From NCBI GenBank assembly GCA_006384855.1, contig VCJN01001070.1:1-64000 (forward strand): a DNA stretch of 64,000 nucleotides, read 5' to 3'. The position numbers were made by a program, and so were the translations under genes. The notes beneath the pieces are model-generated. The model saw only the letters and a program-made list of their open reading frames with translations. It was not told the DNA's origin and ran no database searches. Positions 15,482-54,943 of the stretch are shown in pieces; position 1 is the stretch's first letter, and each line of letters opens with the position of its first letter. This DNA comes from Tetraselmis striata (lineage: Eukaryota; Chlorophyta; Chlorodendrophyceae; Chlorodendrales; Chlorodendraceae).

Positions 15482-17923
15482 AGCAGAGTCTCGCTAGAAT
15501 GCCAACACTGTCGGGGGGGGGGGGGGGGGGGGGTTATCAGTATATAATTGGAATACCCATATTAGATCATCGCTACCATTCTGATAGCAATTCCCAGTTG
15601 ATGCACGAGTGCCTGCTCCATTGCATCCAAGTACTGGCAAAGGGGTGGGGGGGAGGTGCACCTGACTGATGTCCCCGGGTGCCTCATAGATGACGGTGTA
15701 GCGCACCGCCACCAGGGTGTTGTTGCAAATGTTGTTCCGGAAGGATAGGCTGGGCAGGCCACCGGCAGTCGCCAGGCGCGTCACGGTACCGTCGATGTTC
15801 CGGTACTGCATGCAAGGCGCGGCAAGAGTGCGCGGAGGGGAGGAGACAGGCCGCAAAGGGGAGGCGAGGTCGGGGGGGGGGGGGGTGTTCAGGGCTTGGG
15901 GAGGCAGGAATTGGGCTGGAGGCGGCGGGAGGAAGGCGCGGGTGGGAAGGAAGGGGGGGGGGGGGGGGGGGGGGGGTTACCTGCAAGTCCGCCAGCACCA
16001 CTGGCCGGCGCTGCGTACCCGTCTGCCGCACCGCTAGCTGCAGCGTGTTGACCAGCAGCGCGCCGGACAGGGCGGGCGAGCCATCCACGCAGGCGTCCGC
16101 CAGGCTGGGCAGCAGCTGCTGGCAGGTGTTGCCGCCCTGTGCACGCCGCCAGTGCCGCAGTGAGACAGTCCGCTCAGCGCCGTGCTCCCCCTGCACGGCC
16201 CTTTGCTGCCTGGGTGGCCTATTTGTGCGTGTGTAGCGGAGGGTGGGGGGGGAGGGGGGGGGGGAGGGGAGCTCCTCACCCTGGTGGAGGAGAAGGGCAG
16301 GCCGTAGCCGAATTGCACCGGGCGGGCCGAGTCGCACACGCGCGAGTACTGCGCGCTGGGGAGCGCAAACACCTGCCCCGGCACCGGCACCACCGCGGTG
16401 CCGTTCACATAGAAGGCGGGGATGGAGTCGCCCACCTGCACATGTCGCCATGCGAGGGAGGGAGGGAGGGGGGGCAATGCGCCTCAGGGGGGGCTGCCCG
16501 CATCGACAGGAGCTCTCATCGACATACGGCAACGATAGCTGCACCCACTGCTGATCATGCGCAGCTGTGACCCCCCTGGCCTTGTTCCCCGGCGGTTCCC
16601 AGCTCTCCGCACCTTGAAGCCCTCATCGTCAAGAGACAGCCTACTGGTGCTGGTGTCCGCGGTCCTGGTGCTGGTGCTGGTGTCCGCGGGCTCGTACTCC
16701 ACCGGCCACGATGGCGGAGGATTCTCCAGGTCCGCATCAGTTCCCGGTGGCGGATCTGGCGCGGCGCATGCGGCAGAGGAAGCCACAGAGTCAGTGTCAG
16801 GCCGGGTTCTATGGCTGGGCACGCATAAGGCAGCTCACCCATGAAGTAGACGCCCAGCGTGGGGTTGTTGTCGTCTGCGATGCACAGCAGCTGCTCCATA
16901 AACGACTCCGGATCCGCCGCCTCCTTGGTGACGGCCACGAGGCTGCTGCTGCTCGGCAGGTTCACCTGCAGTAGGAGAGTAAGGACGCCGGGCGGGGGGG
17001 GGGGGGGGGGGGGGGGGGGTGAGGGCTGAGGGGACGATGTGTGGAGCTTGCCGTGGCAGCAACAGCCCTCGAGAAGGAGCGACACCCCCTCCCAGCCAGA
17101 AGAAGGACCAGTGCTTTGACGTGGCCAGTGCTGCAGCGGCTGAAGAGCACGAAGAGGTTGGGGGACAGAAGAGAGGCCGCGGTGGTGTAGAGGTATTCAC
17201 CAGCGCGACGGAGGCATTCCGGATGCAGTACTCCAGGCTCGGCGGCTGCGGTCCCTCCGGCAGGCAGTACGAGAACATCGTGTCCACCACGTCCTCCGTG
17301 CAATCCGCATCGCAGCAGCAGTTGGCGTCGCAGCCGGCCAGCGTCATGTCGCAGGCGCAGGTTCCCACGGAGGTGATGAGCTCCGCCGCCTGCGGCGTGC
17401 CGTCGTCCAGCGTGGAGGGCACCGCCTCCCAGTCCACCGGGTACACGTACGCCGGCGCGCTGTAACTAAGCGTGCCGTCGCCCTCAATTAACTGGTCTGG
17501 CGGTGCCAGTTGCGGCGGCGGCGGGGGCGGCGGCGGGCTGGGCAGCGGCGGCGGCGGCGGGGGGGGCGAGGGGAAGGCGGTACCGGGGCCCGAGGGCAAG
17601 GCGGGGCTGCCGCCCCCGTCCACCGGCGGAGGCGGAGGCGGGGCGGAGGGCGGAGGCGGGGAGGGCGGAGGCGGGGAAGGGTCGAAGGCGTAGTCGTCGT
17701 CATATACGCCCCCATCCTGCTCGCCCTCGTCCTCCGGTGGTGTGGGCGTAGGCGTCGGCGCGGGGACTTCCGGTGTGGTAGTGGGCGTGGGGGCTTCCGG
17801 GGTGGGCGTAGGCTCGGCGGACTCATCCGGTGTGGATATCGGTGTCGGCGTCACCGTCTGCGATGCGCTGGCAACGCACATCGCCAGCAGCACCGCCGCG
17901 CACAGGGCCCTCGCGGCGCGCAT
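11661..17923 (-). CDS. TCTN: Tectonic homologue, ciliary transition-zone protein
   Basis: Twelve exons fit one frame with matching phases: 17923-17201, 16965-16839, 16755-16613, 16435-16280, 16136-15981, 15805-15662, 15066-14965, 14486-14315, 14167-14074, 13459-13318, 12736-12605, 11936-11661; 788 residues. A signal peptide (about 1-20) is followed by a Thr/Pro/Glu stalk and a poly-Pro stretch. Then comes the Tectonic cysteine signature CDMTLAGCDANCCCDADC. Later family features are GFKVGDSIPAFYVNG (formed across exons 3 and 4), SGSPGYRPG and DVFYPFTNS. The last 18 residues are hydrophobic, fitting a membrane or lipid anchor. Tectonics belong to the MKS/B9 transition-zone complex that gates cilia, so the alga is expected to be flagellated. 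The poly-Pro stalk is unusual and recalls algal wall proteins. Intron 11 and others contain long C tracts. Confidence 0.88.
15407..15481. repeat. Compound (CT)n(CA)n microsatellite in a Tectonic intron
   Basis: About 19 CT dinucleotides run straight into about 17 CA dinucleotides. They lie within the intron between exons 6 and 7 of the Tectonic gene. Confidence 0.95.
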
Positions 17924-45764: not shown

Positions 45765-45769
45765 CTCAG
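45765..45769. repeat. Copia target-site duplication, left copy
   Basis: CTCAG directly before the left LTR; identical to 53167-53171 after the right LTR. Confidence 0.95.
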
Positions 45770-46213
45770 TGTTAATGTTGACACAAGGCGGCTGCAGCTG
45801 ACAGACAAGCAGCAGCAGGTGAGTGTGAGTGCACAGGACGGCAACACGACCTTGCAGGTCGAGTGAGGAGCTGGTGAGAAGAACGAAGTGATTTACAAAG
45901 GCTAGGTTTCTCCAACTTGGCTGGTGGGCATGTTTGCAACATGCCTAGCCGGTCTGTGGCATCCTGGCCACTGAAATGGCCTCTAGTAGTTACCGTTGTA
46001 CCTTGGTTCTGGTACGTTTGATGTAATTTTTCTAGTACTTTATGCTTTGTTGGTGTGGACATGAATGGTCAACAGTCACTTGAGCCTGTTGCCCATCTGA
46101 GCGCAATCCTAAATGTACCCAGGTGCAGTACCACTGTGGCAGCCTGTTAGAGCAGCAAAAGCAGCTACAAGTCACAGCAGTTCAGCGCTCTCATCAGCAT
46201 ATTAATATCAACA
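45770..46213 (-). repeat. 3' LTR of the copia element
   Basis: 444 bp, TGTTAATG...ATCAACA on the plus strand. The polyprotein stop codon (TGA) lies a few bases inside this LTR, because the frame ends EEGC-stop at 46208. It differs from the 5' LTR only at about 46027 (T here, C at 52980). Confidence 0.95.
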
Positions 46214-49200
46214 CCCCTCCTCGATGAACTGCATGACCTTTGCAGCAAACTTGGCGAAGAGAGGGTTGCGTAGAGGCTTGGTGAACATGTCGGCGGCCAT
46301 CTCCATGGTTTCCACGTAGTGGATACTGATGTCGCCATTCTTGCATGCCTCGCGCACGAAGTGGTAGCGGATGTCCATGTGCTTGGTACGACTGGATGTC
46401 ACGTCATTGGTGGCGATAGCGATGCATGCTTGATTGTCCTCTCCGATAGGGGTAGGGCCGTCAAGTGCGAGTCCCAGCTCCTGCAACATCTGCCTGATGA
46501 ACATCACCTCCTGAGTGGCGATTGCCATGGCGACATATTCCGCCTCCGCAGTGGATAGGGTGACGATAGGCTGCAACAGCGACTTGTAGCTCACTGCTCC
46601 TCCGCAGATGGTGAAGTAGAATCCGCAGGTGGCCTTGCCTTGGCTGGTCATCGTGGCGTGGTTTGAGTCAGACCATCCAGCTAGCTGCAGCACGTCGCTC
46701 CCGCCGAAGGTGATGCCTCGATCAGGGTACTTCTTGAGGTAGCGCAAAACATGTTTTGCATCTTCCATGTGTGCGCGAGTTGGGGCTGACATAGCTCTGC
46801 ACAGGCGGTTGACGGCCTCAGTGATGTCAGGTCTGGTGGCAGTGGAGGCGTACAGCAGTCCGCCGATGAGGCTCCTGAAAATGCTTGGATCGTCTAGCGC
46901 AGGTGAGTCGCGAGCATCGTTGCCGACGCTGGGAATATCAGCAGGGTTGCAGTCTGTCATGTTGAAACGCTCCAGCAGGTCGGTCACGTACTTCCCTTGA
47001 TGTATCTTGATGGTGCCCGCGTCTCGGTCGCGCTCCACCTTCATGCCTAGAATCCAGGTGCAGGCTCCCAGGTCCTTGATGTCGAACTCGTCAGCGAGGT
47101 TGCGCTTGAACTGAACCACCCAGGTGGTGCAGTTGCTGCAGATCAGGATGTCGTCCACGTAGATCGCCACAATGCTGAAGGTGTTGCCGGATCGGTAGAT
47201 GTAGGCGCCGGGGTCGGTCTTGAGCTGAGCAAATCCCTGCCCCAGCATGTGCTCGCGCAGCTTGAGGTACCAGTCGTGCGGCGCCTGCTTGAGGCCATAG
47301 ACGCTCTTCTTCAGGTGGTAGACCAGCTCCTCTCCGTTGGGGCCTTGCTGTTCAAACTCAGGGGCTTTTGTCATGTAGATATCCTCCTCCAGGTCTGCGT
47401 AGAGGAACGCACAGTCGATGTCGGTCTGCTCGAGCTCCATGCCGTAATGGGCTGCCAGGGAAAATATGATGCGTAGCGTGGTGAACTTCACGGTAGGTGC
47501 GAAGGTGTCGTTGTAGTCGATGCCATGCACTTGGCTGAAGCCCTTGGCCACCAGTCGCGCGTTGTAGCGTGCCAGGCTGCCGTCGGCGTTGCGCTTGGTC
47601 TTGAATACCCACTTGCACCTGACTGCCTTCCAGCCGGATGGTAGGGTCACCAGTACCCACGTCTTCCTGGCTATGAGGGATCGGTATTCTACCCACATCG
47701 CCTCCAGCCAGTGTGGTGCATCTGGACCGGTCAGAGCTTCCGTGTGCGTCTGCGGATCGCCGGGTGCCTCGCCTGCCAGATGGGCATGATCTCGATTGCT
47801 CCATGCCTGGTGGCGGGCGCTGACGGGGTTGCGGTAGTCGATGCGCGGGCGGCTTGATCGGGACAAGCCGGCAGGCTGTGGCGGTCCGCTGGACATCGGG
47901 GCGGTTGGCACTGTAGGGCGTGCTGGACCAGGGACGGCAGGAGTAGGAGGCTGGGGAGTCACTGCTGGTGGCTGCGGGGCACCGGCTCCGGCCGGTTCGG
48001 GCGTCTCATCTCGCTCAGGCTGGGCGTTTGGGAAGAAATCTTCGTCGCTGTCGCTGGCATCACTGTCACTGTCGGGACGGCGCAGTGGGCGGGATGCCCC
48101 TCCTGAGGTCGATGCCCCTCCGGAGGTAGATGCCCCTCCTGAAGTTGACGCATGCCCTTCCTGCCACATCATCCCCTCCTGTGTGGCATGCCGCCACACA
48201 TCAGTGGCAGGTGAAGGGGTAGCCGGCAGGACCCGATGCTCGTTGAACGTGACGTTGCGCGTTGCCACGGTGGTGTTGGTATCAGGAAAATAGACGAGGT
48301 AGCAGTCGTCCGCATGCAAAGCGTCGTAGCCCACGAAGATGCCGAGGCGAGCAGAGGGGTCCGACTTGATGCGTTGAGCGCGCTGTTGATGAACGTACGC
48401 TGGACAGCCGAAGACGCGCAAATGGGAGAGATCAAGGGCGGCTGCGGCGACGATGGACATGGGTGCAGCGCCGGTGCTCCTAGGGGTGCGGTTGTGCAGG
48501 TAGGCAGCGGTAGCCATGGCAAACTGCCAGTACGGGGTAGGAAGGCCAGCATAGGCCAGCATGCAGCGGCCCCAGGTCCACAAGGTGCGCCAGGTACGCT
48601 CCATTAGCCCATTCTGAAACTGGCTGTAGGGAGCAGAATACTCACGTCGCAGTGCATGAGCGTCACACTCAGCGATGAAGGCGCGACTGTGGAACACGCT
48701 GTCGTTGTCGAGACGTAGGGCACGGACGGTGTGCCCCATGCTGCGGGCGATCGCCAGGACGCGGCGCAGGCAGTCGACAGCGGCGGCGCGGGAGCGGACA
48801 AATAGAATGCAGCACCAGCTGCTGGCGTAATCAACAGCTCCAAACACGTAGGAGTTGCCTTGCAGCGATCTGGTGGGGTTCTCCCAGAAGTCGCAGCCCA
48901 GCATGTGACATGGTGCATCTGGTCGAGGATGACAGGTGCGCGGTCGCGGGGCTGCAGTAGCCTTGATCATGGCGCAGGCGTGGCAGAACGGTAGACGCGT
49001 CTGCGTGGAGTAGTCAACCTGCGTGCCTGCGGTGCCGCGCAGAGCGTCCATGGCGCGCTCATGGATGTGACCGAGCCTGGCATGCCACAGATACTTGGAG
49101 TCTTGCTTCACTGCAGAGACGAGGGAGATGCCCGCTGGGGGTCCAGACCGCTCAATGCGGCTGTGCAGCACGTACAGGCGGTCGACGCTCTCCACCGGGA

Positions 49201-52200
49201 AGACGGTATCGCCCACTTCGAGGCGGCTGCCGCGGGAGTTGATGATGATATGGAGATGGGCATTCTGCTCCTCAGCTTGCCGGCTACTGAAGAGACGATA
49301 GATCTGGTTGTCAGAGCGGAACGCGAGATCTGGCACGTGTAACACATTGCGAAGAACGACTGTCTGAGCAGTGCCGTTGTCGTCGGGAATGGTGGTTCGC
49401 ACAGTGCCGATGCCGACGGCTCGTGCACACAGTCCGTGAATCCAGCGCGGGGAAATGGGCTTGTAGTCCGCGAAGTCAGAGATGTTGGCCACCATGTGAG
49501 AGGTGGCGCCGGTGTCAAGCACCCACGACTGCGGGAACGACTTGATGCTGGGGAGCGCAACCTCTGACGCACTGGCCTTAACGATGGCAAGTGCCAGCCA
49601 CCTGCCGATGTTGGCATCGATGCAGGCGCCCAGCATCATACGGCGCTGATCAAGCGAGAGACCAGGGATGTCCAATGTGTCAGCCGGGAAGCCCGTGCTC
49701 ACAGCCACGATGTCCAAACAGGGGGTTTCAGGCTCGCCGTCGAGTAGAAGCATGCTTTTGCCGGGCACTGCAGGTGCGTCTGTCGTGGCGGTGGTCATGC
49801 GGTAGGCGTAACTGTCCCGGCGGGAGACGAACTTCGAGAAGAGGCCATGCTGCAGATGAGAAGGAGCGGTCCACCGTGGAGAGAAGCCATGTGTGGTAAG
49901 GAGTTCCCCAACAGACAGCGGTGCCCGCTGGGCCTGCTGATAGTGAGCGCGAAAGAAATCGATGTCACGGATGTTGCTCCATACCACTGTATCGCGTCTG
50001 GCTGTTGACCCAAGCTCGTGCGCTCGGACCAGAATTGGCGTGCCCATAGCCTCAACGATCTCATGGCAGCGCGCAGCACCGGGGACGTTCTCGAGAATGA
50101 AGTTGACGCCACCAGACTGCATCGACGCCAGACGCTTGACGACATCAATAGAACCGTACAGCCCACCAGCACGCGGGTCGGCGAGCATGAGGCGGTGAGG
50201 GTTGGCGGCTGAGAACGGGGCGCAGGGCGGTGAGGCAATCACTAGGTCGACATGCCCAAGTGACGCCAGTTCGTCGTCAGTGATGGACTGGACATCAGGG
50301 TTGATGCGGCCGTAGGAGTCGTGGATGGCGCTGGCAGGGATCTGATGAGGATGGCGGGCTTGCATGCGCTCCTGCTCCACCCGGCCGGCCTTGCGCACGT
50401 GCTTGTCGGTCTCGCAGCAGATCATGTCGCCAATGGTGACACCAGCTTCGGCCAGGCCCTCCGCGATGGAGTGAAGGGCGCCAGCACACAGTGACAAAAT
50501 CCGAATCGGCTTGCCCTTGGTAAAAGCAGCAGGGTCGGCCTTGACATCAGTAACAGACGGAAGAGGCTGGAACGGCGTCGGCGAGCGGGCAAGGGCGGCG
50601 TGAGGCAATGGCGGTGTGGAGGCGATGTCCGGCAGCGTCTGGGCGGCAAACGCAGCAGTATATCCACATGGATGGAAGAAGGGAACGGTCTTGGTAGGAG
50701 TGAGGTAGGCCGGGTAGCACACACCCGGGCGATGAGACGCAGTGAGGCGCAAGTGGAACGCGCGCTCCAGAGCGTCATGCTCGCACTCGCTGTCACTGTC
50801 GCCATTGCCGTCATCACCATGGACATCCACATCGCTGGCGGTATCGCAGAGGTTGTCGACAGCAGTCATCATGATCAGTTGATCAATGGCATCCGGTGTA
50901 GACGGAGGGACGGCGTCCGGGTAGTCAGCGGCATCATGTGTGGGAGGGCGCTCCTGTGGCGGGCTCCAGTCACACGGTGTGCAGCTGCCGCCAGACGAGC
51001 TGTCAGTCACCGCGCCTGGCATGTTGTTGTCGCTCGAGGCATCGTAATCACCTTCGCTGATGCGTAGGAAGGCGCATGCAGCCTGGCGCGCCGCATGGTT
51101 GCGGCGGCGCACAACATGGTTGCGGCGGCGGCGCAGATGGCGGTTGCGGCGATGAGGTGACTTGGGCTCGGCGTCAGGATCCTCAGCGGACGCCTCCAGC
51201 GCGTCAGGCTCCGCGGCAGGCTCGCCTGACTCCTCGGGCTCCTTAGACTCATGACACGCCGCAGCAGACTCCACTGGCTCCGCGGGCGCCTTAGACTCAT
51301 CAGTCTCCTGCTCAGCACCCATGGCAGGCTCCGCAAGTGGCATGATGGATGTAACCACCACATCAGCCTCGGGGAGCATGGGACGCTTGCCATCCGCAAT
51401 ATCCGCCCGGAGCTTGTAGCACTCCTCGCGCAGGTGAGAGCGGCTCCAACAGAAGGTGCAATGGGTGATCACGTTGAAGTCGGTGGTGACGGGCGCCAGA
51501 CGTTCTGCTGATGTGGGGCAGCTGGGCAGGTTGAGGTGAGAGGTCGCCACAAAAGCAAATTCCTTGGCCACGTGGGCATGCTCCTTGTCGCCAGCGGCGT
51601 CAGGGCGGCCGCGGCCGTCTCCTGCAGGTGGGTTGCGATCAGGGTGAACACGGCCCGCGGCCTTGTCCCGGGCGTAGCTTCGGCAGTCACGCTTCGGGTG
51701 GCCAGGGATGCCACAGTAATAGCAGCGGCGCTTGTTGACGCCGGGACGGTCTGACGGCTGCGTAGACGAGTGGCCAGCGCCGCCGGACGCCAAGGAAGAC
51801 AGCATGGCGGCGAGCTTGGACATGGTTGCATCTTCAGCGCCGGGCTGAGGAGGAGAGAGCTCCTCTTTGAGTCTTGCGACCAGGGCAGTGAGATCAGCCT
51901 CACTCAATTTGCCATCCTTCACGGCGCTCGGCTGCGACGGGGGCGGCGCGGCCAGGAATGCTGCAGCAGTTGACTCGGCGGCAGGCGCACGGGAGGTGAG
52001 ACGGACAGCCTTCGCTGCCTCAAGGAAGGTGTCAGGCCTGCTGCGAAGAAGGTGGTCGTACTCAGACTTGAAGTCAGGTTGACGCAGACCATCACGGAAG
52101 TGGTTGATCAGCTTGGCGTCAGGGACAATCGTGCCGGCTCTGTCAAGCATCAGGCGGGCAAGCATCAGGCGGGCGATGAACGATTCGAGGTCCTCGTGAG

Positions 52201-52219
52201 GAGATTGCTTGGTAGACAT
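46208..52219 (-). CDS. Copia Gag-methyltransferase-Pol polyprotein
   Basis: 2003 codons without a stop. Gag: C166/C169/H174/C179 zinc knuckle (CYYCGIPGHPKRDC) and a second at C254-C267 (CTFCWSRSHLREEC). An acidic linker with an Arg-rich patch (RRNRHLRRRRNHVVRRRN) follows. Residues about 571-881 form a C5 DNA-methyltransferase: motif I ILSLCAGA, motif II Glu603, motif IV IASPPCAPFSAAN with catalytic Cys666, motif VI ENV at 710-712, motif VIII STARRDTVVW at 738-747, motif X LGACIDANIGRWLA. Protease WVLDTGA (Asp902); integrase HHCC from about 1046 and DDE core (GCDFW, LRLDNDS, QNGLMERTWR); RT with YVDD at 1687-1690; RNase H GWSDSNHA, STAEAEYVA, GEDNQA, ADMFTKPL. All catalytic residues that can be judged are present. 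The coding frame extends upstream of this Met to 52549, so the true Gag start is probably earlier. Confidence 0.95.
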   Translation of the reverse strand: MSTKQSPHEDLESFIARLMLARLMLDRAGTIVPDAKLINHFRDGLRQPDFKSEYDHLLRSRPDTFLEAAKAVRLTSRAPAAESTAAAFLAAPPPSQPSAVKDGKLSEADLTALVARLKEELSPPQPGAEDATMSKLAAMLSSLASGGAGHSSTQPSDRPGVNKRRCYYCGIPGHPKRDCRSYARDKAAGRVHPDRNPPAGDGRGRPDAAGDKEHAHVAKEFAFVATSHLNLPSCPTSAERLAPVTTDFNVITHCTFCWSRSHLREECYKLRADIADGKRPMLPEADVVVTSIMPLAEPAMGAEQETDESKAPAEPVESAAACHESKEPEESGEPAAEPDALEASAEDPDAEPKSPHRRNRHLRRRRNHVVRRRNHAARQAACAFLRISEGDYDASSDNNMPGAVTDSSSGGSCTPCDWSPPQERPPTHDAADYPDAVPPSTPDAIDQLIMMTAVDNLCDTASDVDVHGDDGNGDSDSECEHDALERAFHLRLTASHRPGVCYPAYLTPTKTVPFFHPCGYTAAFAAQTLPDIASTPPLPHAALARSPTPFQPLPSVTDVKADPAAFTKGKPIRILSLCAGALHSIAEGLAEAGVTIGDMICCETDKHVRKAGRVEQERMQARHPHQIPASAIHDSYGRINPDVQSITDDELASLGHVDLVIASPPCAPFSAANPHRLMLADPRAGGLYGSIDVVKRLASMQSGGVNFILENVPGAARCHEIVEAMGTPILVRAHELGSTARRDTVVWSNIRDIDFFRAHYQQAQRAPLSVGELLTTHGFSPRWTAPSHLQHGLFSKFVSRRDSYAYRMTTATTDAPAVPGKSMLLLDGEPETPCLDIVAVSTGFPADTLDIPGLSLDQRRMMLGACIDANIGRWLALAIVKASASEVALPSIKSFPQSWVLDTGATSHMVANISDFADYKPISPRWIHGLCARAVGIGTVRTTIPDDNGTAQTVVLRNVLHVPDLAFRSDNQIYRLFSSRQAEEQNAHLHIIINSRGSRLEVGDTVFPVESVDRLYVLHSRIERSGPPAGISLVSAVKQDSKYLWHARLGHIHERAMDALRGTAGTQVDYSTQTRLPFCHACAMIKATAAPRPRTCHPRPDAPCHMLGCDFWENPTRSLQGNSYVFGAVDYASSWCCILFVRSRAAAVDCLRRVLAIARSMGHTVRALRLDNDSVFHSRAFIAECDAHALRREYSAPYSQFQNGLMERTWRTLWTWGRCMLAYAGLPTPYWQFAMATAAYLHNRTPRSTGAAPMSIVAAAALDLSHLRVFGCPAYVHQQRAQRIKSDPSARLGIFVGYDALHADDCYLVYFPDTNTTVATRNVTFNEHRVLPATPSPATDVWRHATQEGMMWQEGHASTSGGASTSGGASTSGGASRPLRRPDSDSDASDSDEDFFPNAQPERDETPEPAGAGAPQPPAVTPQPPTPAVPGPARPTVPTAPMSSGPPQPAGLSRSSRPRIDYRNPVSARHQAWSNRDHAHLAGEAPGDPQTHTEALTGPDAPHWLEAMWVEYRSLIARKTWVLVTLPSGWKAVRCKWVFKTKRNADGSLARYNARLVAKGFSQVHGIDYNDTFAPTVKFTTLRIIFSLAAHYGMELEQTDIDCAFLYADLEEDIYMTKAPEFEQQGPNGEELVYHLKKSVYGLKQAPHDWYLKLREHMLGQGFAQLKTDPGAYIYRSGNTFSIVAIYVDDILICSNCTTWVVQFKRNLADEFDIKDLGACTWILGMKVERDRDAGTIKIHQGKYVTDLLERFNMTDCNPADIPSVGNDARDSPALDDPSIFRSLIGGLLYASTATRPDITEAVNRLCRAMSAPTRAHMEDAKHVLRYLKKYPDRGITFGGSDVLQLAGWSDSNHATMTSQGKATCGFYFTICGGAVSYKSLLQPIVTLSTAEAEYVAMAIATQEVMFIRQMLQELGLALDGPTPIGEDNQACIAIATNDVTSSRTKHMDIRYHFVREACKNGDISIHYVETMEMAADMFTKPLRNPLFAKFAAKVMQFIEEGC
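49577..50509 (-). other. C5 cytosine-DNA methyltransferase domain within the polyprotein
   Basis: About 311 residues lying between the Gag zinc knuckles and the protease. The order I-II-IV-VI-VIII-(target recognition region)-X is the standard non-permuted arrangement. SPPC supplies the nucleophile that attacks C6 of cytosine, ENV binds the base, and the RR of STARRD matches the QxRxR position. The stretch after motif IV (AANPHRLMLADPRAGGLY) recalls the N-P-R...GLY pattern of DNMT3/DRM-type enzymes rather than DNMT1, but this placing is by eye. The target recognition region of about 110 residues between VIII and X (RWTAPSHLQHGLFSKFVSRR) shows no family resemblance. Confidence 0.9.
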
Positions 52220-52529
52220 GGAGCCCTCAAGGGTGGAGATGTAGGTCTCAGGTGGCGGAGCAAAAGCGGCCTTGAGGGCTTGCAGGGCGTGGTAGCCCTT
52301 ACGGGTGTTGTAACGGTAGCTGACGTCCAGGAGGTGAGTCGCCGCGGTCCTGCCAGGAAGCAGGTTGAGCAGCAGGCGGAAGACTTGGGCGTGGCAGTCC
52401 TCAGAGGTTGTGGTGTCATCAGCGACAAAGATATTAGAATACCCCTCCTCGCTGGTGAGACGACTCTCAAGCTGAAACTGCCACAGCAGCCATGAGGCAG
52501 CATCAAAATCACCAGGACGAGCAAAGGAC

Positions 52530-52568
52530 TCATATATAGTCCTTGGTCTTCAAGCGCGCATGGGACAT
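52530..52568 (-). other. Likely Gag start with a frame break
   Basis: An ATG at 52568, 155 bases inside the 5' LTR, begins MSHARLKTKDYI, then stops at 52532-52530. The polyprotein frame is open from 52549 and reads YESFARPGDFDAASWLLWQF, a Gag-like continuation. A shift of one frame within the ATATAT run around 52535 would join them. It could be a recoding site, an indel or a sequencing error. Confidence 0.55.
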
Positions 52569-52709
52569 GGTAGCAAGGATTCCCACGAGGGGTGACGGAG
52601 GACGCCAGAGGACGACGAGGATGAGACGAGCGGAGAAACCCAGAGGTTGAGAAACCTAGGTGGAAGCGAAGACGAAAACAACGATGAGTGGCGCAGGGAC
52701 ATGCGCGAT

Positions 52710-52722
52710 CAGGCCTATAACC
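52710..52722 (-). promoter_or_regulatory. Putative primer-binding site (half initiator-tRNA type)
   Basis: Directly next to the 5' LTR, the minus strand reads GGTTATAGGCCTG. The complement of the initiator-tRNA(Met) anticodon region in plants reads GGTTATGGGCC, so 10 of 11 bases agree. Copia-group elements such as Drosophila copia and yeast Ty5 prime with a half-molecule of this tRNA. Position and similarity support it; the host tRNA was not available. Confidence 0.5.
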
Positions 52723-53166
52723 TGTTAATGTTGACACAAGGCGGCTGCAGCTGACAGACAAGCAGCAGCAGGTGAGTGTGAGTGCACAGGACGGCAACAC
52801 GACCTTGCAGGTCGAGTGAGGAGCTGGTGAGAAGAACGAAGTGATTTACAAAGGCTAGGTTTCTCCAACTTGGCTGGTGGGCATGTTTGCAACATGCCTA
52901 GCCGGTCTGTGGCATCCTGGCCACTGAAATGGCCTCTAGTAGTTACCGTTGTACCTTGGTTCTGGTACGTTTGATGTAACTTTTCTAGTACTTTATGCTT
53001 TGTTGGTGTGGACATGAATGGTCAACAGTCACTTGAGCCTGTTGCCCATCTGAGCGCAATCCTAAATGTACCCAGGTGCAGTACCACTGTGGCAGCCTGT
53101 TAGAGCAGCAAAAGCAGCTACAAGTCACAGCAGTTCAGCGCTCTCATCAGCATATTAATATCAACA
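52723..53166 (-). repeat. 5' LTR of the copia element
   Basis: 444 bp, same ends as the 3' LTR, one substitution. It should contain the promoter, but no TATA-type element stands out clearly enough to annotate. Confidence 0.95.
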
Positions 53167-53171
53167 CTCAG
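53167..53171. repeat. Copia target-site duplication, right copy
   Basis: CTCAG, identical to 45765-45769. Confidence 0.95.
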
Positions 53172-53795: not shown

Positions 53796-54943
53796 TCCTG
53801 GCATGTCTGGCTCTAATGACTGTCAGGCAGGTCCCCAGGGTCGCCCCAGAAGCGAAAGTAGGCGCGCCACTCGTTGAAGCGGCGCTGTGTCATCAGCGCA
53901 GCGAAGCCATAGCGGGTGGGCATCGCCTTGATGGAGGGCACTGCAGGTTTGTCCCACAGCTCCTCCAGCGACACCGTCGAGTGAAGCGTCATCGCGAGTA
54001 GAACCGCCAGGAAGACCTTAAACTCCGCCAGGGAGAAGGGGACGACACTGCTCCCCCCCTTCTCGGTGTTGCGGCGCTGGTTCATGGCATCGACGGCGCG
54101 CGACATCGCGCTGAGGGGGAACCACTGCCAGAAGTGCCATGCCACGTCCGCCTGCGCCGCCTCACTGTGGTTGCGGCGGTAGTGGCCGGAACGTGGGGGG
54201 TACGCTCTGGCCTGCTCACGCTGACAGCGGTAGCAAGAGGCGGGTTCCCAGTCAGGCGGCGGAAGCTCGGTGGGGGTGGGGCGAGGGGTTGGTGCCGCGG
54301 GATATTCGTCGGGTTCGGTGGAGTCACCAGCGGGCTCGGCATCGGCGTCCGCAAACGCATCCAGCAGCTGCTGGTTGGCCGCCTGCACCTCCTCCAAGTC
54401 AACGGTGGTCGGACCCACCCGCCTGTGCTCCTCGGGGGCCGCTGCTGGGGCGGGGGGGACGAGGGCGGCAGCCTTGAGGCTGACCTCACGCTCTATCTCA
54501 GGGTGATCTTTGGCGAAAGTGACGCGATGCCACGCGCCAGAGTGGCCACAGACGACGCCGCGCAGCGTGACACCCGCCACGGGCTCCCCTGGGTGGGCAG
54601 CAACCCATACCTTCTTGGCGGCGTCGGTTGTATCACCGAAACGGACAGTAATGGCCGTTCCGAGGGGCAGCCGCATGGTGGGCAGGTGGTGGTGGTGGCG
54701 GCGGCGGAGCCCTCGATCTGCTGGGCCCATCGCATGCGCATTGTGGGTATCTGGCCCACCCCCGCCGCGAAAACTATATCCCAGCTGCCTTGGGGTGTCA
54801 GCTACGAGGCCTGACCGTTGGTTACGGTTGGGACGACCTCCGTTGCTCAGAAATTCTATTTAACTATTTAGTGCACCAAGGTGCACTATAGGTGTACCGG
54901 GGTTCACGTCCGTTAGCCGGAAAGATAATTAGCGACTAGCGAC

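Follow-up and report, generated by a model that had tools for sequence, protein, structure and literature searches.

What does a cytosine methyltransferase do inside the polyprotein of a retrotransposon? The question is raised by positions 45770-53166, minus strand, of a 64,000-nucleotide stretch of Tetraselmis striata DNA (GenBank assembly GCA_006384855.1, contig VCJN01001070.1, positions 1 to 64,000; hereafter the window), which almost certainly hold a Ty1/copia retrotransposon carrying a C5-cytosine methyltransferase. The best overall explanation, to which we give an even chance, is that this is a young, gag-damaged copy of an element that has long held a methyltransferase in its Gag-Pol, and that the enzyme would mark the element's own complementary DNA (cDNA).

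Anatomy of a copia element with a methyltransferase in its polyprotein

The element is bounded by two long terminal repeats (LTRs) of 444 bp each, with TG...CA termini and a single mismatch that lies outside a CpG context (0.2% divergence). This reproduces an LTR difference already noted in a preliminary description of the locus, to which we add a 5-bp target-site duplication, CTCAG; one mismatch in 444 together with matching target duplications points to recent movement. Along a single frame of 2003 codons, the Pfam models zf-CCHC, DNA_methylase, Pol_BBD, gag_pre-integrase, rve, SH3 and RVT_2 follow one another (the zf-CCHC, DNA_methylase and gag_pre-integrase matches falling slightly under the curated cut-offs on the polyprotein), and RVT_2 lies downstream of the integrase rve, which is the copia-type order. 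The earlier account of Gag zinc knuckles, methyltransferase, protease, integrase and reverse transcriptase in one frame is thereby borne out; RNase H was assigned by reading the sequence, no Pfam model for it having matched in the polyprotein. The features of the element are as follows (aa, amino-acid positions in the main frame):

45765..45769, no strand: target-site duplication CTCAG, left, 5 bp
45770..46213, minus strand: 3' LTR, 444 bp, CpG-depleted
46208..52219, minus strand: main open frame, 2003 aa, comprising Gag without its N-terminus, methyltransferase, protease, integrase, reverse transcriptase and RNase H
46214..46222, minus strand: polypurine tract GAGGAGGGG, immediately before the 3' LTR; the main frame passes through it into the LTR
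46235..46732, minus strand: RNase H region, STAEAEY at aa 1889; bounds approximate and read from the sequence
46928..47665, minus strand: copia reverse transcriptase RVT_2, aa 1519-1764, E 4.1e-66; YVDD at aa 1687
48233..48433, minus strand: retroviral polymerase SH3-like domain, E 6.2e-20
48623..48916, minus strand: integrase core rve, aa 1102-1199, E 4.6e-8
48962..49177, minus strand: GAG-pre-integrase domain, E 6.5e-6, 26.3 bits (cut-off 28.4)
49322..49525, minus strand: protease region Pol_BBD, E 6e-12; DTGATSH at aa 902
49562..50566, minus strand: C5-cytosine methyltransferase domain, aa 552-886; the PF00145 match spans aa 571-883
51419..51460, minus strand: second CCHC knuckle, aa 254-267, pattern match
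51683..51724, minus strand: first CCHC zinc knuckle, aa 166-179, pattern and Pfam match, 18.1 bits (cut-off 20.8)
52710..52722, minus strand: putative primer-binding site GGTTATAGGCCTG, immediately after the 5' LTR
52723..53166, minus strand: 5' LTR, 444 bp, one mismatch to the 3' LTR
53167..53171, no strand: target-site duplication CTCAG, right, 5 bp

The polypurine tract before the 3' LTR is clear in the sequence. Elsewhere in the window, blastn found no second stretch resembling the element, a repeat search found no further LTR-like pair of at least 100 nt, and ARAGORN found no transfer RNA (tRNA) gene.

Identity of the methyltransferase domain

On the polyprotein PF00145 matches weakly (E 0.0011, 19.0 bits, cut-off 22), and on the isolated domain it barely reaches the cut-off (22.4 bits); TIGR00675 also matches weakly (1.1e-4, far under its cut-off). 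The domain is matched by the profiles PHROG_116 (E 6.7e-10, residues 12-165) and PHROG_363 (E 2.3e-7), and a protein of the same family, P0008, matches PF00145 at E 3.7e-10. A search of the PDB with the single window sequence reached DNMT3A at E 0.0085. Furthermore, an AlphaFold model of the domain, built on 31 rows (alignment A6, of which 26 are viral methyltransferases), has a pLDDT of 86.9 and a pTM of 0.88, and shows a DNMT3-like catalytic fold with a short target-recognition part; the 50 PDB matches listed out of 152 at E <=0.001 are every one of them DNMT3-family (TMq 0.59-0.70, best E 2.4e-14). As the viral rows shape this model, we read it as indicating that the sequence fits a C5-methyltransferase fold and not as independent proof. 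Given the PHROG profiles, the PF00145 match of P0008 and the predicted fold, we rejected the proposition that the domain is not a methyltransferase; the profile and fold searches that the preliminary description had called for did find this enzyme class.

The motifs are only in part those expected:

49973..50011, minus strand: motif VIII region GSTARRDTVVWSN, with Thr744 in place of the second Arg and Arg742 retained
50084..50092, minus strand: motif VI ENV, aa 710-712
50222..50230, minus strand: motif IV PPC, with catalytic Cys666
50471..50509, minus strand: degenerate motif I PIRILSLCAGALH, LCAGALHS, with Cys578

Motifs IV and VI, the first arginine of motif VIII and a motif-X-like stretch, LGACIDANIGRW, are present as previously read, but motif I is degenerate and the second arginine of motif VIII is lost, so that the domain lacks both the Phe in motif I and the RxR in motif VIII that are common, albeit not universal, in C5 enzymes. 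At the position of Cys578 viral homologues have Phe (24 of 26), Cys (1 of 26) or Tyr (1 of 26); at that of Thr744 all 26 have Arg, whereas Thr is found in the four of four element-family members that cover it. The catalytic residues themselves are retained in the family members covering them and in 26/26 viral homologues, and P0008 reads PDC instead of PPC, with Asp before the catalytic Cys.

Could this be a methyltransferase by descent only, its catalysis lost or altered, that now binds nucleic acid as part of Gag, for example in RNA packaging or primer-complex folding? The Cys in place of Phe in motif I, the Thr in motif VIII of four of four family members and the PDC of P0008 are what such a history might leave, and the domain adjoins the Gag zinc knuckles. 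However, the catalytic Cys, ENV and the first motif-VIII Arg are kept down to approximately 40% identity, the motif-I Cys recurs in one of the viral homologues, and the DNMT2 of S. pombe, which the PDB names a tRNA (cytosine(38)-C(5))-methyltransferase, has PSC at motif IV. We consider this alternative unlikely, while giving it some weight.

Two gene models of related copies, P0002 and P0003, omit the same 60 codons (frame aa 731-790, spanning motif VIII). The GT-AG boundary at which they do so is also present in the window, and the omission may reflect an in-frame intron or a gene-caller artefact.

The fusion in sister copies and environmental relatives

The eukprot set Tetstr1 (Tetraselmis striata) contributes four sister gene models, whose identity to the window copy is 95.6-98.0% over those parts of the methyltransferase that they cover. 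The window copy is identical to none of them, and its Asp802 is Gly in each of the four. Three of three models that cover Cys666 retain it, as do four of four for ENV and two of two for Arg741-Arg742, the remaining models skipping those stretches; the random change at catalytic sites that the preliminary description had named as a refuting observation is thus not seen among them. As in the carriers recognized by de Mendoza 2018, the methyltransferase lies within a retroelement coding region, occurs in several copies and keeps its key residues. In P0002 (Tetstr1 TSEL_017634) the element sequence is joined to an upstream PF02527 part, probably in a merged model.

In two environmental proteins, P0005 (276 aa) and P0006 (460 aa), the methyltransferase leads straight into a copia protease domain. 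The identity of P0006 to the window is 52.0% in the methyltransferase (175 columns) and 44.6% in the protease (112 columns); the corresponding values for P0005 are 40.7% (204 columns) and 41.5% (53 columns). P0004 is 59.1% identical to the window in the methyltransferase; P0009, a separate protein with a protease part only, is 71.7% identical; and P0008 and P0005 agree at 89% of the 54 columns that they have in common. These protein searches (in the third of which the best 8000 candidates were scored) detect relatives that share exact five-residue words, and family membership is thus a lower bound.

Judged by these sequences, the capture extends beyond Tetraselmis striata, diverged environmental relatives sharing the fusion, and the comparison suggests that methyltransferase and protease form an old module in which the former is conserved about as well as the latter. 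This parity is the strongest evidence here that the methyltransferase has a function. It bears on the possibility that a host or viral methyltransferase gene was acquired once and has since drifted as a functionless passenger: retroelements are generally known to pick up host sequence, but a neutral passenger is disfavoured because drift should have left it less conserved than the protease, and here the fusion is shared at ~40-52% identity with the catalytic residues kept. We therefore regard a passenger as very improbable.

A young copy with a damaged gag

The preliminary description had called this copy young and intact. Youth is upheld by the LTR divergence; intactness is not, and we rejected it on the evidence of the gag start:

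52220..52568, minus strand: N-terminal gag stretch beginning at the natural ATG (52568); an early frameshift, near 52529, puts it outside the 2003-codon frame

The frame that begins at the gag ATG (52568) meets a stop after 12 codons, and the remainder of the gag N-terminus lies in another frame; between this ATG and the start codon of the 2003-codon frame lie 349 nt, a number not divisible by 3. In contrast, the sister protein P0001 starts MSHARLKTKDY and has its Gag in one uninterrupted frame, and P0001, P0002 and P0003 all have Leu at the position of the Met that opens the 2003-codon frame of the window. That frame thus opens ~115 codons inside Gag, and because of the shifted start ~115 N-terminal Gag residues are out of frame: the window copy is young but gag-damaged. 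A sequencing or assembly error may be the source of the frameshift. With the gag start shifted in this copy, the earlier argument that recent mobility implies that both parts work is not supported.

A probable orphan enzyme with a DNMT3-like fold

In a tree of 16 rows the copia enzymes are sister to DNMT3 and Vibrio-phage enzymes (support 78/79). In a tree of 32 rows three copia rows group together (97/83) and stand beside L001, a phage row on a long branch (94/91), a placement flagged by the program as possibly false; the p-AU values for a single clade are 0.052 with DNMT3A/B, 0.13 with DNMT3 and the phage set, and 0.51 with DNMT2. Warnings attached to the latter tree concern long branches (window, L001, HaeIII) and the odd letter make-up of the window row. 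P0004, P0006 and P0007 were omitted from both trees and DNMT1 from the larger one, which took 17 of 46 stop-free viral enzymes; 47 of 82 loci were translated, and one viral search contributed the best 80 of 553. Nearness to viral rows is partly a matter of choice, since these were selected for their likeness to the window or to a nearby phage enzyme. On the evidence of the two trees we rejected a clear DNMT3 assignment, and our call is that the copia-borne enzyme is probably an orphan C5 methyltransferase with a DNMT3-like fold. The earlier proposal of a further, chlorophyte, copia-borne capture between Gag and protease therefore stands, whereas the tree placement does not make it simply another DNMT3 capture; nor could we support its transfer of CG specificity from published enzymes.

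Searches for a donor used short exact peptide patterns, and within these no clear viral or bacterial donor was found. Viral contigs scanned with the window domain gave one matching stretch and no relative, with P0006 no stretch, with P0008 18 stretches and no relative, and with alignment A1 127 stretches that included one distant phage enzyme, L001; prokaryote genomes scanned with alignment A4 gave 16 stretches and no relative. A tblastn search of the domain against 50,697 phage records returned 72 matches (best E 3e-6), with 26-33% identity among the 30 matches listed. In a viral structure library, most of the best matches that carry a name are C5 methyltransferases of phages and giant viruses. 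A putative cytosine methyltransferase of Tetraselmis virus 1 appears there as a partial match at rank 42 (TMq 0.36), and is a possible source of such genes in a Tetraselmis host.

Another possibility is that the enzyme acts on RNA, either the element's transcript or a half-tRNA primer, whose anticodon arm would pair with the primer-binding site. The best PDB match of the six-row family profile is indeed DNMT2, a tRNA methyltransferase (2.9e-6, versus 6.5e-5 for DNMT3A), and the DNMT2 grouping in the larger tree is not rejected. On the other hand, the modelled fold, its short target-recognition part included, is matched by DNMT3 entries, there is no DNMT2 among the 50 structural matches listed, and the CFT motif, a hallmark of DNMT2 that we see in the DNMT2 sequence, is absent from the polyprotein. 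The initiator tRNA is not known to have a C at position 38, which also counts against an RNA substrate. The putative half-tRNA primer site speaks for one. Its first 11 bases, GGTTATAGGCC, match at 10 of 11 positions the complement of a plant initiator-tRNA anticodon arm; 10 of 2000 random 31-mers from the window score equally high. Among copia elements, Osser, Bryco and some Gymco-II have been described as using half-tRNA-Met primers (PMC6317226). Overall, we judge an RNA substrate to be improbable.

A related scenario, of similarly low probability, is that a copia lineage has long held, across hosts, an orphan C5 methyltransferase of its own rather than a DNMT3 captured from a host; its motifs I and VIII would have been retuned, and it would act within the particle on the half-tRNA primer or the nascent cDNA. 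If this were true, nucleic-acid methylation would be a built-in replication step of a copia lineage.

CpG depletion of the LTRs and the self-marking hypothesis

A further observation concerns the composition of the LTR, which contains 10 CpG against 26.5 expected (ratio 0.38; none of 10,000 shuffles is as low), with an excess of TpG (46 against 31 expected) and CpA (43 against 24.5 expected). Among other overlapping 444-bp stretches of the window, 3 of 557 have CpG as low, and 2 of 95 of those with similar G+C. The body of the element is not depleted, the lowest ratio among 54 internal stretches being 0.70. Such a footprint would be expected if CG sites of the LTRs had been methylated throughout the history of the lineage.

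We hypothesize that the methyltransferase marks the element's own cDNA, a proposal that we hold at slightly under even strength. The enzyme would be made as part of Gag-Pol, between the zinc knuckles and the protease, and because of this position we predict that it is packaged with the reverse transcriptase. In the virus-like particle, cleavage by the adjacent protease would leave the enzyme either freed or still tethered, located where cDNA is made; cytosines of the new cDNA, chiefly those of LTR DNA, would then be methylated before or just after integration. The element might gain by having its cDNA protected, by resembling methylated host DNA, or by self-limiting silencing. Catalytic activity, packaging, a DNA substrate, a CG site and a benefit are what we infer here, the CpG-depleted LTR giving self-marking one indirect hint.

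Several points weigh against cDNA self-marking. Activity, substrate and methylation of the element are each deduced from sequence and analogy. The degenerate motif I, the loss of the second motif-VIII Arg and the PDC of P0008 could mean that activity is altered or lost, and a model built from the element family's 8 rows alone has a pLDDT of 40, the good model leaning on 26 viral rows. The CpG figure comes from a single LTR sequence and stands without a control LTR from a DNMT-free element, the window holding no other LTR pair; host methylation of any LTR would also yield such depletion. Finally, no methylation was detected in the 2018 tests of the KnitGypsy and SymbioLINE enzymes, a result that the authors call inconclusive (PMC5890265).

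The same LTR-specific depletion fits methylated promoters and speaks for an alternative in which the element marks itself for silencing by its host, a self-restraint that would hold copy number at a tolerable level. The idea has been raised before (PMC5890265). We find it a rather unlikely account: the recent insertion indicates a family that is still moving, selection at the level of the element is difficult, and host enzymes alone could suffice.

Other observations in the window

An ASTSGG short tandem repeat occupies aa 1357-1375 of the main frame, in the linker between integrase and reverse transcriptase. Beside the element, at 53813-54730 on the minus strand, lies a PF13843 transposase fragment (E 1.8e-6), which we take to be PiggyBac-type, and an open frame with a DUF1619_N match (E 3.5e-9) lies at 16835-17923, minus strand.

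Comparison with known systems and implications

Retrotransposon-borne DNMTs are already known; the combination of a chlorophyte copia element with placement between Gag and protease looks new. Carriers described in 2018 are LINE, DIRS and Gypsy retroelements (PMC5890265). One of them, KnitGypsy-Dnmt3 of Klebsormidium nitens, likewise has a C5 methyltransferase with its key residues kept inside a green-lineage LTR polyprotein, but it is reported as a Gypsy element with the domain in Pol, whereas the Tetraselmis element is copia, has the domain between Gag and protease, and is not clearly DNMT3. SymbioDIRS-Dnmt3 and SymbioLINE-Dnmt of Symbiodinium similarly place a methyltransferase on many retroelement copies; these are DIRS and LINE elements of dinoflagellate hosts, as opposed to an LTR copia element. 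In yeast, the domains of SymbioDIRS-Dnmt3 carry out de novo CG methylation, and the same authors propose methylation of cDNA (PMC5890265).

A 2025 paper (PMC12344493) states in one sentence that 'LTR Copia and DIRS' elements contain members of DNMT3, with streptophytes and dinoflagellates as the hosts. It thus names LTR Copia as a carrier, but credits the 2018 reports, which called the streptophyte element Gypsy, and the word 'Tetraselmis' is absent from its main text. Among the literature matches listed (titles and abstract openings, with preprints and most subscription papers outside this scope), there is no published description of a chlorophyte copia element with a methyltransferase. In the transcriptome set of PMC9998398, as far as the accessible text reports it, green algae have no DNMT3, and Tetraselmis has DNMT5a and DNMT6.

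Osser-type green-algal Ty1/copia elements resemble ours in being copia, and a half-tRNA-Met type of primer site is described for them as it is proposed here; the accessible part of PMC6317226 mentions no methyltransferase in them. Phage DNMT3-type enzymes and DNMT3A/B offer the nearest fold and are among the nearest tree rows, but at 17-33% identity and with differences in motifs I and VIII. Algal DNA transposons that encode a ParB-like protein with a DNA methyltransferase are another algal mobile element with proposed self-marking; in that case, however, the element is a Sola DNA transposon and the enzyme an N4-cytosine or N6-adenine methyltransferase in a separate gene (PMC12477816).

With this element, the retroelements known to bring a cytosine methyltransferase of their own come to include a copia element of a chlorophyte, with the enzyme at a new position in the polyprotein. 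Its environmental relatives point to long retention of the methyltransferase, and the role that such enzymes may have for an element becomes testable in a culturable alga with recent insertions.

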